Below are positions 39,533-53,090 of a stretch of 64,000 nucleotides of DNA, piece by piece. Below the pieces are notes generated by a model, which saw only the letters and a list, made by a program, of their open reading frames with translations, made no database searches and was not told the origin of the DNA. This stretch comes from Melioribacteraceae bacterium (GTDB lineage: Bacteria; Bacteroidota; Ignavibacteria; Ignavibacteriales; Melioribacteraceae). Positions within the stretch are counted from its first letter, which is position 1; each line of letters begins with the position of its first letter. Location: contig JALVFE010000021.1 of NCBI GenBank assembly GCA_027030245.1, forward strand, positions 124,001-188,000, given 5' to 3'. Made by a program: the position numbers and the translations under genes.

Positions 39533-39904
39533 TTATAAAATGATATTAAAATATTGGGAATCAAAATAAAAAAATTATGGAAATATTCATAGAATACTTG
39601 TTCGAACGAAAGGACGGATAAAAGTTTCAAATTCCAAAAGATCAGTGACTAGTGACTATTGACAAAAATGAATCACTTCGATGGGGTATGTTTTTTATAT
39701 TGCAATATTGTTTTATTGATTTGCCGCGCCCATAGCATTTGTTGGTTTGAATAGAGAGTTCCTTTTAGATCCCGAATAATAATTCTTCTCCTTGTCATGC
39801 TGAATTTATTTCAGCATCTCATAGAGTTCATTTTAGATCCCGTAACCAGTTCGGGATGACATGGTAATAAGCAATCCGTCGGTGGCGGGCGGGATGACAG
39901 AGAA
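39533..39904. repeat. Upstream region of fni, then repeat module
   Basis: 39533-39615 is unique AT-rich sequence and the likely promoter area of fni. 39657-39776 is a 120-bp module that recurs in direct orientation at 52721-52840 with about seven differences. It contains 'aatcacttcg', the segment 'gatttgccgcgcc' and ends in 'gttccttttagatcccgaa'. 39794-39817 is a GTCATGCTGAA...TTCAGCATCT palindrome; 39834-39861 and 39876-39900 are CCCG-type units. No gene. Confidence 0.7.
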
Positions 39905-40039
39905 AAATCCCAAATAACAAATCCCAAATGACAAATGACCGATGACAAATGACGAATAACCAAACGTGAAACGCGAGACGTTAGACGCAAGACGTAAAAC
40001 GTGAGACGTAAGACGTAGGGGACGCAAACCTTGCGTCCC
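39905..40039 (-). repeat. Composite heptad repeat, inverted orientation (16 units)
   Basis: 39905-40016 reads as 16 consecutive heptads: AAATCCC, AAATAAC, AAATCCC, then AATGAC-type units, GAATAAC, then eight of the NNNACGY class (CAAACGT, GAAACGC, GAGACGT, TAGACGC and so on). The stem GGGACG...CGTCCC follows at 40019-40039, then 'taaaattattttttattagcgaattcgcgg'. Confidence 0.85.
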
Positions 40040-40088
40040 TAAAATTATTTTTTATTAGCGAATTCGCGGCAGTTTAATTGTTCCTTTT

Positions 40089-40173
40089 AGATCCCGAAAC
40101 AAGTTCGGGATGACAGGTTCTTGGGTCTGCTATGCTATTTATAGCGCGTCATGCTGAACTTGTTTCAGCATCT
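40089..40173. repeat. REPIN-like inverted palindrome dimer (85 bp)
   Basis: AGATCCCGAAAC...GTTCGGGATGACA, the spacer 'ggttcttgggtctgctatgc' type sequence with palindrome ATGCTATTTATAGC, then GTCATGCTGAAC...GTTTCAGCATCT. It is 12 bp shorter than the copies at 1831 and 2512 because the GCTGAA unit lacks the inner stem. Confidence 0.72.
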
Positions 40174-40241
40174 GATTGTGGCAACGGGTTCTTTCTAGAT
40201 CCCGAAACAATCCGCCGGGGCGGACGGGATGACAGGAAAAG

Positions 40242-40383
40242 AAATCCCAAATAACAATCCATAAATAACAAATGACTAGTGACCATTGACAAGTGACGAT
40301 TAACCAATGACCGATGACGATTGACAAATGACCAAACGTAAGATGCGAGACGTGAGACGTAGGGGACGTAAACCTTGCGTCCC
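40242..40383 (-). repeat. Composite heptad repeat, inverted orientation (17 units)
   Basis: 40242-40360 is 17 consecutive heptads in one register, from AAATCCC through AATGAC-type units to CAAACGT, AAGATGC, GAGACGT, GAGACGT. The stem GGGACG...CGTCCC is at 40363-40383. Confidence 0.85.
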
Positions 40384-40535
40384 TAAAATTATTTTTCATT
40401 CGTGAATTCGTGGCAATTTTCAGTTTCATTTTCTGGATTCCCGCTTTCGCGGGAATGACATATAAAAACATCCCCTCTCAAGAGGGGACTTTGTTTAAAT
40501 TTCACTGCTACCACCGTCCACACGGTGGTAGAAAT
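40384..40535 (-). repeat. Leader of composite repeat with dRS3-like palindrome
   Basis: Together with the end of the previous array this makes the inverted near-identical partner of 2186-2354 (partner span 40347-40515). It contains ATTCCC-GCTTTCGC-GGGAAT (40437-40456), TCCCCTC-tcaa-GAGGGGA (40471-40488) and, only here in intact form, the perfect stem TACCACCGT-ccac-ACGGTGGTA at 40509-40530. The remaining stretch to 40657 is unique AT-rich sequence without a gene. Confidence 0.75.
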
Positions 40536-42757: not shown

Positions 42758-43681
42758 TCAATTATTTAGATATTCAATTACATTCAATGCAGCTACGGTT
42801 CCGTCTGCAACTGCGGTTGTAATTTGTCTGTATTTTTTATGAATGGAATCGCCGGCTGCGTAAACGCCTTCAATATTTGTTCGCAAGTCTTCGTCTACAA
42901 TTATTTCTTCTTTCTCATTTAGTTCGATGATACCTTTGAACTTTTCGGTGTTCGGGATATAACCAATTAAGATGAAAACACCGTCGATTTTCATTTCCGA
43001 GATTTCACCGGACTTCTTATCAATAATTTTCACTGCTTCCAGTTTTTCATCACCCAAAAATTCGGTTATCTCTGATTCCATGATAAAATTAATTTTGGGA
43101 TTTTCCTTTGCTTCTTTAACGGCGTGCGGGAAAGCTTGGAAATGATCAAATTGGTGAACGACCGTTACGGATGCGGCATATTTAGTTAATGCAACTGCTT
43201 CTTCCAAAGCGGAATTACCTCCGCCGACAACAATAATGTTTTGCCCCGTAAAAAAATCACCGTCGCAAGTTGCACAATATGAAATACCGTGCCCTTTGAA
43301 TTTATCTTCTCCGGGTACGTTTAATGTCTTTGATCTTCCACCGGAAGCAATAATAACAGCCTTTGCTTTATAAGTTTCTTTATTATTAATTTCTACTGTT
43401 TTTATTTTCCCTTGGAAATCAACTGCAGTAACTTTTACATTAGAGCGAACCTCACAACCGAATTTAATAGCTTGATTTTTCATAGTCCGGGCAAGTTGAT
43501 ATCCGTTAATATTTTCAATGCCCGGATAATTTTCAATTTGATGTGTAAGCACGGTTTGACCGCCAACCGTTCCTTCGTTTAGAATTACTGTATCTATTCT
43601 TGCTCTGGATAAATAAATTCCGGCGGTAAGTCCGGCCGGACCACCGCCTAAAATAATTACATCAAAATCGTATTTTCGCAT
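42758..43681 (-). CDS. trxB: Thioredoxin reductase-like flavoprotein
   Basis: 307 residues. FAD-binding GGGPAGLTAGIYLSRA near the N-terminus and the redox pair CATC (Cys136, Cys139) in GISYCATCDGDFF are intact, as is the second dinucleotide motif VVGGGNSALEEA. However, the position of the NADPH-specific HRRxxxR motif reads VVHQFDHFQAF, without the arginines that bind the 2'-phosphate. This suggests NADH, or another electron donor, instead of NADPH. It is ten bases downstream of an unusual thioredoxin-like gene, which is probably its partner. Confidence 0.85.
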   Translation of the reverse strand: MRKYDFDVIILGGGPAGLTAGIYLSRARIDTVILNEGTVGGQTVLTHQIENYPGIENINGYQLARTMKNQAIKFGCEVRSNVKVTAVDFQGKIKTVEINNKETYKAKAVIIASGGRSKTLNVPGEDKFKGHGISYCATCDGDFFTGQNIIVVGGGNSALEEAVALTKYAASVTVVHQFDHFQAFPHAVKEAKENPKINFIMESEITEFLGDEKLEAVKIIDKKSGEISEMKIDGVFILIGYIPNTEKFKGIIELNEKEEIIVDEDLRTNIEGVYAAGDSIHKKYRQITTAVADGTVAALNVIEYLNN

Positions 43682-43691
43682 AGTTCCTTTC

Positions 43692-44042
43692 TTATTCGTT
43701 ATTACCGAATTCTTCGTTTAATATTGTTGTCACTTGCTCCATAGTTTGAATACTGCTTGTTGCTTTAACGACTTTTCCATTTTTGTAATAAACGGTAAAT
43801 GGAAGTCCGGTAAAAGAACGGCATTCCGGTAAATTACGGATAACATGTGCAGCCGGAATGTCAAATTCCATGTCGGCAAATTTTACATGGGTATACTCAT
43901 TTTCAAGTTCTTCCATTATTTCATACACCGGAACGCACATCGGTCCCATTCTACCGCAACAAATCATTACGTTTTCGTTGTTTTGAAGAATTTCGTTGAA
44001 TTGTTCTTCGGAAGTAATATGAGTTAGATTGGTTTGTAACAT
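43692..44042 (-). CDS. Thioredoxin-like protein lacking the CxxC motif
   Basis: 116 residues. Overall thioredoxin fold by pattern: an N-terminal strand, the active-site helix region, MEFDIPAAHVIRNL, and the cis-Pro loop TGLPFTVYYKNGK. The active site reads CCGRMGPMCVPV (Cys28, Cys29, Cys36): the first cysteine of the usual WCGPC is replaced and only the second (Cys36) is in register, with two extra cysteines seven to eight residues earlier. It either uses another cysteine pair or has a non-disulfide function. In operon with the reductase gene. Confidence 0.8.
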   Translation of the reverse strand: MLQTNLTHITSEEQFNEILQNNENVMICCGRMGPMCVPVYEIMEELENEYTHVKFADMEFDIPAAHVIRNLPECRSFTGLPFTVYYKNGKVVKATSSIQTMEQVTTILNEEFGNNE

Positions 44043-44520
44043 GACTATCCCTTATTTTATAATGTAAAATAATCAAATTGGTTGGATGCATTTTCCGGTA
44101 AAAAGTTTCAGACTAATTTTCGAACGTAATAATTTTCTAATGTTTTTTACGAGTAATGAAGGATATGTTAAAACAACTACGAATCAATGAGAAATTATAA
44201 ACGTAAAACGTGAGACGTAAAACGTAGGGGACGCAAACCTTGCGTCCCTAAAATTATTTTTTATTTGTGAATTGGCAGCGGCTTCCCAAACATCAAAAAC
44301 CTCCCGAACCCCATAGGAGTTAAATATTTATAATAATCATAAACCCCTTTAACATTAAAACCCCGTCGGGGTGATATCTTAAATTTGTGTTGTGGTTTTG
44401 TGTCACTCTTAGCGGAGTTTGGGTTTTATGTTAGAATATTTGTACTATAAATGTTTCACGCCTACGGCGTTTGCGGGATGAAATAGAGAGTTCATTTAGA
44501 TCCCGAAATAAATTCGGGAT
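44043..44520. repeat. Repeat gap, first part
   Basis: 44043-44195 is unique AT-rich sequence, probably the promoter area of the thioredoxin-like gene. 44198-44225 holds four heptads (TAAACGT, AAAACGT, GAGACGT, AAAACGT) followed by the stem GGGACG...CGTCCC at 44228-44248. 44309-44375 carries ACCCC/GGGGT-type mini-hairpins and 44401-44475 the inverted 'gtcactc...gttagaat...tttcacgcctacggcgt' module. 44499-44524 is a CCCGAA...TTCGGG palindromic unit. Much of this repeats 11200-11520. Confidence 0.7.
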
Positions 44521-44993
44521 GACAGGTTTTATTAACTGTCATGCTGAATTCATTTCAGCATCTGATTGTGGCAACGGGTTCTTTTTAGATCCTGAAACGA
44601 TCAGCCGACGGCGGACGGGGTCATTCTTTTTTTAACCACAATGAACACAAAGGGAAAAACAAACGTGAGACGTAAGACGTGAACGTGAGACGTAGGGGAA
44701 GCAAATTTTGCTTCCCGAAATTTATTTTTCATTAGCGAATTAGCGGCTATTCAATTGTTCTTTTTTAGGTCCCGAAACCAGTTCGGAATGACAAGTTTTA
44801 TTAACTGTCATGCTGAATTCATTTCAGCATCTCATAGAGTTCCTTTTAGATCCCGAAATAAATTGGTTCTGTTCTGCGTCATGCTGTCCCGAAACATTTA
44901 AATACCATGTCATGCTGTTCGCCGCAGGCGAATTGTTTCAGCATCTGATTTTTCCTTTTAGATCCCGAAACAAGTTCGGGATGACAGACAAAA
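44521..44993. repeat. Repeat gap, palindromic units and covariant stem-loop
   Basis: 44538-44562, 44809-44833 and 44910-44947 are GCTGAA/TTCAGC or GCTG/CAGC units; the last has an inner TTCGCC-gca-GGCGAA stem. 44660-44693 is a short heptad array with one unit a base short. 44696-44716 is the stem GGGAAGCAA / TTGCTTCCC, which differs from the standard GGGACGCAA / TTGCGTCCC by one compensated pair. 44961-44988 is a CCCGAAAC...GTTCGGG unit. No gene. Confidence 0.72.
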
Positions 44994-45049
44994 AAATTAC
45001 AAGTGACAAATGACAAATGACCAATGACAAATTACAATTCCCTAATGCG
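44994..45049 (-). repeat. Short heptad array
   Basis: Eight consecutive heptads: AAATTAC, AAGTGAC, AAATGAC, AAATGAC, CAATGAC, AAATTAC, AATTCCC, TAATGCG. It directly follows a CCCGAA-type palindromic unit. 45050-45194 is unique and should hold the promoter of the next operon. Confidence 0.65.
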
Positions 45050-45194
45050 TAATATTTGTATAATTCATTTTCTAAAGAAATGAAATTGTTTTGGTATCAA
45101 TCCGGTATCCTTTATTGGCAACATGGCTCAATATAATTTGTTAAACAGATTTGTTATATTTTAATTTTAAAATCGAAACAGGTGTGCACTAACT

Positions 45195-52210: not shown

Positions 52211-52664
52211 TATCGAATTAGCGGCAGTTTAATTGTTTATCTTAGATCCCGAAACTATACGCCAACGGGATGACAGGTTCTTCTTACCGTCATGCTGAAT
52301 TCATTTCAGCATCTAATTGTGACAACGGGTTCTTTTTTGATCCCGAAACAAGTTCGGGATGACAGATTCTTGGGACTGTTATGCTATTTATAGCATGTCA
52401 TGCTGAACTTGTTTCAGCATCTACTTAATCAATAGTTAAATTTATCTTTTGGGAAGACTTGAATAACAGCGTTTGCGGGATGAAATAGAGAGTTCTTTTT
52501 AGATTCCGAAACAATCAGCCAGTGGCGGACGGAATGACATGGTAAAATGCAATCCACTGACAGTATGACCAAACTTTCTAGCTGTCATGCTGAATTCATT
52601 TCAGCATCTAATTGTGGCAACGGGTTCATTTTAGATCCCGAAACAAGTTCGGGATGACAAGAAA
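52211..52664. repeat. Field of palindromic units including an 85-bp inverted dimer
   Basis: No gene. 52289-52313 and 52583-52608 are GCTGAA...TTCAGC units. 52338-52422 is the REPIN-like dimer: GATCCCGAAACA...TTCGGGATGACA, spacer with ATGCTATTTATAGCAT, then TGTCATGCTGAAC...GTTTCAGCATCT. 52503-52539 is a TTCCGAA...CGGAATGACA unit with the inner stem of GCC-agt-GGC type. 52634-52659 is CCCGAAAC...GTTCGGG. The end of the mini-hairpin module ('gcgtttgcgggatgaaatagagagtt') appears at 52469-52495. Confidence 0.7.
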
Positions 52665-52840
52665 AAAATCCAAATATCAAATCCCAAAAACCAAATAGCC
52701 AATGACCATTGACAAGTAACTATTGACAAAAATGAATCACTTCGTTGGGGTATGTGTTTTATATTGTTATATTGTTTTATTGATTTGCCGCGCCAATAGC
52801 ATTTGTTGGTTTGAATAAGGAGTTCCTTTTAGATCCCGAA
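52665..52840. repeat. Heptad array joined to a 120-bp duplicated module
   Basis: 52665-52727 is nine consecutive heptads (AAAATCC, AAATATC, AAATCCC, AAAAACC, AAATAGC, CAATGAC, CATTGAC, AAGTAAC, TATTGAC). The last unit opens the module at 52721-52840, a direct copy of 39657-39776. In both places the array runs straight into the module with the same junction unit TATTGAC. Confidence 0.75.
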
Positions 52841-53090
52841 ACAATCCGCCAGTGGCGGACGGAATGACAGGTTTTTCTTCCCGTCATGCTGAACTTGTTT
52901 CAGCATCTAACTCAAATTACGAGTTCATTTTTAGATCCCGAAATAAATTCGGGATGACAAGAAAAAAATCCAAATAACAAATACTAAATTCCAAATAACC
53001 AGTGACTTATAACCAGTGACAAATGACGATTGACAAATGACAAGTGACAACTGACTATTTCCCAATAACAAACCACAACATACAAACCTA
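52841..53090. repeat. Palindromic units and a 17- to 18-unit heptad array
   Basis: 52830-52869 is a CCCGAAACA...CGGAATGACA unit with an inner CCGCC-agt-GGCGG stem, 52882-52907 a GCTGAAC...GTTTCAGC unit and 52934-52960 a CCCGAAAT...TTCGGG unit. 52965-53083 is 17 consecutive heptads (AAAATCC, AAATAAC, ... CAGTGAC, TTATAAC, ... AACTGAC, TATTTCC, CAATAAC, AAACCAC, AACATAC), with AAACCTA as a possible eighteenth. The last units drift from the consensus. The rest to 53216 is unique AT-rich sequence. Confidence 0.75.

Follow-up and report, generated by a model that had tools for sequence, protein, structure and literature searches.

Thioredoxin systems are generally taken to consist of CxxC carriers fed by NADPH, sometimes by NADH or ferredoxin. 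A pair of adjacent genes from a Melioribacteraceae bacterium does not follow this scheme, and the questions that it raises are from which donor its reductase draws electrons, on which thiols its thioredoxin-like protein works, and whether the two proteins serve each other. The pair lies in a stretch of 64,000 nucleotides (contig JALVFE010000021.1, positions 124,001 to 188,000), which is here called the window. A sequence-only reading of this DNA had described a reductase with CATC and GGGNSA and without the arginines of HRRxxxR, next to a thioredoxin in which CCGRMGPMC takes the place of WCGPC, and had regarded the two as a co-evolved pair.

The reading favoured here, with a probability of roughly one half, is that the pair would form a dedicated second thiol relay of two proteins, with a reductase that prefers NADH, a partner working through Cys29 and Cys36, and a narrow range of targets. 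The gene pair has been kept over several phyla beside the ordinary system, with the nucleotide pocket and the carrier active site both rebuilt. If the reading is correct, a thioredoxin fold can perform thiol chemistry without a CxxC and can be tied to another electron pool. The pair apparently constitutes an undescribed second redox system which recurs in many bacteria. Its motif strings match nothing in open-licence PMC papers, and it is not named among the topic matches listed from these papers (titles and beginnings of abstracts).

The locus and its surroundings

The two open reading frames are on the minus strand, where the sequence-only reading had placed them, with the thioredoxin-like gene first, the reductase gene second and a gap of 10 bp between them (Table 1). 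A formiminotransferase-cyclodeaminase gene is found 267 bp beyond the pair, and the host assembly of the window amounts to 3.8 Mb. The small protein has 135 relatives, of which the best 80 define the loci compared below; the closest record among these 80 is a Melioribacteraceae MAG whose small protein is 96% identical.

Table 1. Features of the gene pair (positions are those of the window)
Feature	Position	Strand	Evidence
Thioredoxin-like protein, 116 aa	43692..44042	-	ORF; 135 relatives, best 80 kept; AF2 pLDDT 92.6; VIA Z 15.2 to thioredoxin
CCGRMGPMC codons (residues 28-36), at WCGPC region	43935..43961	-	sequence; GRMGPMC 91/91, C29 90/91, C28 88/91
Leu80-Pro81-Phe82 codons, cis-proline position of thioredoxin fold	43797..43805	-	P81 91/91; aligned to E. 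coli Ile-Pro-Thr
Thioredoxin-reductase relative, 307 aa	42758..43681	-	TIGR01292 351.9 bits (cut-off 343.45); AF2 pLDDT 90.9; VIA Z 41.0 to bacterial TrxR
CATC redox disulfide codons (residues 136-139)	43265..43276	-	CATC in 113/113 family records
GGGNSA dinucleotide (pyrophosphate) motif codons (residues 153-158)	43208..43225	-	GGGN-A 113/113 records, 82/82 distinct
HQFDHFQ codons (residues 176-182), NADPH enzymes HRRDxxR there	43136..43156	-	Arg at 177/178/182 in 0/113 records, 0/82 distinct; E. coli TrxB and AhpF alignment

Arrays of palindromic dispersed repeats flank the pair on both sides (39755-40471 and 44201-45062), and further repeat positions occur in the window at 1705-2608, 11516 and 52288-52959. 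One repeat, AGATCCCGAAACAAGTTCGGGATGACA, has 13 matches in the window with at most 3 mismatches and 0 in 100 shuffles, and another, TGTCATGCTGAA..TTTCAGCATCT, has 9 matches and again 0 in 100 shuffles.

The thioredoxin-like protein

The sequence of the small protein (...NVMICCGRMGPMCVPVYEIMEELENEY...GLPFTVYYKNGK) contains C28, C29, C36 and a candidate cis-proline, P81. Its conservation has been followed in 91 distinct sequences, the window's own included. The CxxC redox motif is absent from all of them, the loop reading CGRMGPMC or CYGRMGPMC throughout, and P81 is present in all; both the missing CxxC and the retained cis-proline of the earlier description are thus borne out. Trp is also missing from the active-site region, and the protein stays below the thioredoxin cut-offs of Pfam PF00085 (15.7 vs 23.5 bits) and TIGR01068 (18.4 vs 96.8). 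The residues G30, R31, M32, G33, P34, M35, C36, P38 and P81 are invariant (91/91). Among the cysteines, C36 occurs in 91 sequences, C29 in 90, C28 in 88 (Ile in the other 3) and C74 in 77. Neither chance nor sequencing error nor decay of the pair can account for this, since GRMGPMC, Pro38 and Pro81 do not vary among the 91 distinct sequences and Arg is found at positions 177, 178 and 182 in none of the 113 family reductase records. A search for intermediates to ordinary thioredoxins at E <= 0.001 gave none in 149 genomes of the same class, 13 of which carry the family itself.

The AlphaFold2 model of the small protein is confident (pLDDT 92.6) and matches thioredoxins with Z up to 15.2 and an rmsd of 1.8 over 105 aligned residues; a thioredoxin fold with a cis-proline is therefore confidently predicted. 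Both phmmer and hhalign align C36 to the resolving Cys35 of thioredoxin, the hhalign match being weak (probability 44), and in this same hhalign match (probability 44) the nucleophilic Cys32 is left without a counterpart. The idea that C36 corresponds to the Cys32 nucleophile, which came from comparing CVPV with CGPC, was set aside as less probable than a match to Cys35, on the helix register (IMEELENEY/ILDEIADEY) and on the hhalign and phmmer alignments. In the predicted model the preceding strand ends at residue 30 and the helix begins at residue 37, so that C29 and C36 would flank the loop. A redox pair Cys29-Cys36 is favoured from these sequences. The pair Cys28-Cys29 is less likely, since 3 of the 91 have Ile in place of Cys28, and an essential role of Cys28 or of Cys74 is ruled out by the natural variants (88/91 and 77/91). 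Three sequences contain only two cysteines: C29 and C36 remain in L049 and L113, C28 and C36 in L033, which is the sole sequence of the 91 without C29 and sits on a 6.9-kb contig.

An alternative, unlikely though deserving attention, is that the small protein is no disulfide carrier. It would act instead through Cys36 alone, as persulfide, sulfenate or mixed disulfide, or through a soft-metal site made of Cys29, Met32, Met35 and Cys36, and the reductase would just keep the thiol reduced. Indeed, no cysteine position other than Cys36 is kept throughout the 91 sequences, both Met32 and Met35 are invariant although a simple disulfide would have no use for them, and two actinobacterial MAGs have an arsR-type gene after the pair. 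However, Cys29 is kept in 90/91, with L033 as the lone exception, and the arsR link is limited to few loci.

The reductase

The reductase (...FKGHGISYCATCDGDFF...VVGGGNSALEEA...VTVVHQFDHFQAF) passes the curated cut-off of TIGR01292 (thioredoxin-disulfide reductase) with 351.9 vs 343.45 bits, and its AlphaFold2 model (pLDDT 90.9) is predicted to resemble bacterial TrxR with Z 41.0. As this NCBIfam model accepts the enzyme, automatic naming likely hides its difference. The glycines of the FAD motif (G12, G14, G17) are invariant in 30/30 sequences. The family is defined here as the 113 records more than 50% identical to the window enzyme, which correspond to 82 distinct sequences. All 113 records keep CATC, GGGN-A, H176, Q182 and E160, so that GGGxxAxE is intact. 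In the HRRxxxR motif for the 2'-phosphate, Arg at 177, 178 or 182 occurs in 0/113 records (0/82 distinct). As had been claimed for this enzyme, all three arginines of the E. coli TrxB motif HRRDGFR (K-12 record) are replaced, and the window reductase reads HQFDHFQ. Residue 177 is Gln in 84 family reductases, Glu in 27, Met in 1 and Ile in 1.

The thioredoxin-docking region is partly retained. The G-x-G (G130, G132) is kept in 113/113, its middle residue being Lys or Arg in 92 and His in the window enzyme, and Ser134 and the docking-region Phe143 are likewise kept in 113/113. The residue after CATCDG (142) is Phe in E. coli TrxB and Asp in the window enzyme and in 110/113 family records; the replacement of this docking Phe would fit a changed partner.

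The intact GGGN-A (113/113) favours NAD(P)H as donor over ferredoxin or F420, and the absence of all three arginines speaks against NADPH and for NADH. It is rather improbable that the reductase works without pyridine nucleotide and receives electrons from ferredoxin, F420H2 or another donor, like FFTR, DFTR and DvTRi. HRRxxxR is gone as in these enzymes (available portions of PMC5627308 and PMC10880999), but the GGGN-A kept here in 113/113 is highly degenerate in TRi, and its conservation is lower in CpFTR and MjDFTR, as far as the available text of PMC5627308 describes them. Continued use of NADPH, with other residues binding the 2'-phosphate and the motif change as neutral divergence of a duplicate, appears still less probable. 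It would agree with the strong overall likeness to NADPH-TrxR (Z 41.0); however, Gln182 is fixed in 113/113 and residue 177 is Gln or Glu in 111/113, which looks like constraint and not drift, and Glu would be expected to repel the 2'-phosphate.

Pairing of the two genes

The variant reductase is found downstream of the small-protein gene, on the same strand, at 71 of the 80 loci; this corresponds to 71 of the 77 with enough contig, since in 3/80 the contig ends too early to judge. The two genes are within 100 bp of each other at 54 loci, with a median of 63 bp between aligned ends. In a sample of the same phylum, the small protein is present in 16/296 genomes with 17 copies, and the variant reductase adjoins all of them (17/17). 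The pattern H(Q/E)FDHFQ has matches in 16 genomes of this sample, 15 of them in common with the small-protein set. It misses G047, which reads HQFDNFQ, and its match HQFDHFQ in G100 was put down to chance, neither kind of gene being present within the surrounding 5 kb.

The question had been raised whether the loop motif always neighbours such a reductase. It does so at 71 of 77 assessable loci, and at six the thioredoxin-like gene stands apart from any variant reductase despite sufficient room (L005, L012, L053, L057, L061, L079). Such separate homologues had been named in the earlier reading as a finding that would refute it, and they count against a strict rule. The sole match at E <= 1e-50 in the genomes of these six loci is not of the variant type, having HRR in five genomes and IVRK in one; all six are MAGs, and the absence of the reductase there is not proof. 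The pairing is strong, yet non-obligatory.

One MAG contains two pairs, L013 and L050. Among 80 and 71 compared, the nearest relatives of the L050 proteins are those of L031 and L068, both loci of Delongbacteria (83 and 81%, 75 and 75% identity). With those of L013 they share only 65 and 59% identity, so that both genes seem to have moved together. The distances of the two proteins also correlate (r 0.65, 69 loci, 0/1000 permutations as high), a relation which shared ancestry alone could produce. Co-evolution of the pair, as earlier proposed, therefore stands on the 71/77 loci, the 17/17 of the phylum sample and the joint movement in L050, and is weakened by the six loci without the reductase.

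At 6/80 loci (L015, L039, L049, L054, L066, L072) a gene for a CxxC thioredoxin is found no more than 60 bp from the pair, with WCxPC in five and CNVC in one; the neighbour thioredoxins of L039, L049, L054 and L066 have an N-terminal hydrophobic stretch. Since G-x-G and Phe143 are kept and such genes are adjacent at 6/80 loci, the reductase may serve another partner too. That the two proteins are not partners at all, the reductase serving CxxC thioredoxins and the small protein being independent and reduced by any TrxR, can hardly be expected, for although the six orphan loci, these CxxC neighbours and the kept G-x-G and Phe143 would suit it, the pairing at 71/77 and 17/17 loci, the joint movement in L050 and the Asp that replaces the first Phe of the docking region speak against it.

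A conserved wider operon was not found. The commonest neighbours after the pair occur at only 16, 14 and 13 of the 80 loci and are, in this order, large secreted proteins that resemble TonB receptors by eye, thioredoxins and SH3/NlpC-type proteins. Neighbour families were derived by scanning 63 of 75 same-strand neighbours, and 25 of the 61 families were listed; among those listed, OsmC, GroES and glutaredoxin genes also adjoin the pair. OsmC-like genes are beside it in L039, L066 and L072. In two actinobacterial MAGs (L058 and L074), a frame of an arsR-type regulator begins about 12 bp past the aligned end of the reductase.

Distribution and coexistence with the ordinary system

Among the best 80 of the 135 relatives, the hosts of the pair belong to Ignavibacteriota, Bacteroidota, Calditrichota and Delongbacteria, with a few actinobacterial MAGs. 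In a phylum sample around one of the latter, the family is present in 1/198 genomes, namely that MAG. The carriers include the named strains Prolixibacter bellariivorans ATCC BAA-1284, Prolixibacter denitrificans DSM 27267 and Stygiobacter electus 09-Me, which makes the system experimentally testable. The small protein is also encoded in a Methanomassiliicoccales MAG (L067, 3728-4072), where the contig, 4.7 kb long, may be mis-binned. Transfer by plasmid or phage was considered and rejected: plasmids and phages gave no match, and viral_contigs gave no confirmed relative.

Besides the pair, the window's genome encodes a canonical TrxR that reads HRREGFRA, together with thioredoxins whose active sites are WCSPC and WCAPC. 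Because an HRR reductase and thioredoxins of the WCxPC type are present in the same genome, the pair represents a second system. A further TrxR is present in all of ten other pair-bearing genomes, with HRR at the site in 8 and VRR in 2.

Proposed mechanism

In the dedicated relay favoured here, electrons would pass from a pyridine nucleotide, most likely NADH, to FAD and then to the CATC disulfide of the reductase. From CATC they would be handed directly to the thioredoxin-fold partner. The working thiols of this partner would be Cys29, where a core strand ends, and Cys36, which immediately precedes the helix at the position of the resolving Cys35 of thioredoxin. The partner may then act as carrier, isomerase or sensor for a few targets. 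It should not be a general disulfide reductase, because the profile alignment gives it no residue at the place of the nucleophilic Cys32, and a general activity as insulin reductase is unlikely on this ground of sequence.

A wider interpretation, possible but doubtful, is that such pairs form a distinct and widespread class, mostly of anaerobic bacteria. An NADH-fed reductase would serve a carrier with MGPM at the place of CGPC and with a C-x6-C (Cys29-Cys36) as its redox pair. The invariant Arg and the two Met would tune the thiolate or bind a soft ligand, the targets would be private, and the carrier would serve as a readout of the NADH pool instead of the NADPH pool.

Comparison with known systems

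The window enzyme resembles NADPH-TrxR and TIGR01292 in passing the cut-off and in its FAD motifs, CATC, GGGNSA and Z 41.0, whereas it lacks all three 2'-phosphate arginines and falls in a tree group of its own. In the thinned tree (61 rows) the reductase family is one side of a branch with SH-aLRT 93, below the 95 mark, and the rows were chosen by identity, so that this grouping is partly built in. The small protein shares with the thioredoxins of PF00085 and TIGR01068 the fold, the cis-proline and the KNG turn, but it is without CxxC and Trp and below both cut-offs.

Other enzymes with a TrxR-type core also lack the same arginines, which speaks for NADH as the probable donor of the window enzyme. 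E. coli AhpF, which is NADH-dependent, has EFAPEMK at the site; it differs in that N-terminal CxxC domains belong to the same chain and AhpC is the substrate. The TrxR of Thermosipho, a genus near Thermotoga, likewise lacks HRR and reads QNLPYLT (7jyp), but these are other residues than in the window enzyme, against which it scores 237.9 bits. The TrxR of Thermotoga maritima prefers NADH (available text of PMC5627308). FFTR and DvTRi are TRs independent of pyridine nucleotides, with a GGGxxA motif that is degenerate or absent according to the available portions of PMC5627308 and PMC10880999. The missing HRR is common to them and to the window family; the latter, however, has an invariant GGGN-A (113/113) and has lost only one NAD(P)H motif.

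The Trx3 of Desulfovibrio vulgaris (DvTrx3) has the active site CPHC, which is a CxxC, whereas the small protein is without CxxC in 91/91 sequences. DvTR3 and Trx3 are an NADH-preferring TR and a non-canonical Trx, which form a dedicated pair beside the canonical system, and DvTrx3 has isomerase activity and no protein disulfide reductase activity in the available account (PMC5627308). The window pair resembles this system, as there described, in being a second one, in the lost HRR with an intact GGGxxAxE, in the adjacent atypical thioredoxin gene and in the replaced docking Phe. By the same partial description (PMC5627308), TR3 differs at three places: GR/KG is replaced by CxQ, the Ser ahead of CATC by His, and the Phe by Pro; compared with TR3 as so described, the window family keeps G-x-G and Ser134 in 113/113 and has Asp at the changed Phe in 110/113. 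Membership in TR3/Trx3 is therefore ruled out on the docking residues described for TR3, by which the two are set apart (available text of PMC5627308). The best reading is that the pair, known here from its sequence, would be a relay that is analogous in function to the Desulfovibrio TR3/Trx3 and of different lineage.

Two further frames have been observed near this group of enzymes. A thioredoxin-TrxR fusion (L117, 25-1173, genome G302) has HQFATLTAN at the HRRDxxR site. In the tree it stands beside the reductase family, but its branch is long and the placement unsure. A TrxR-like frame with HYCATCDGPFY and ESSDELRAS (L170, 1501-2421, genome G305) resembles features described for TR3/dcTR1 in the available portion of PMC5627308.
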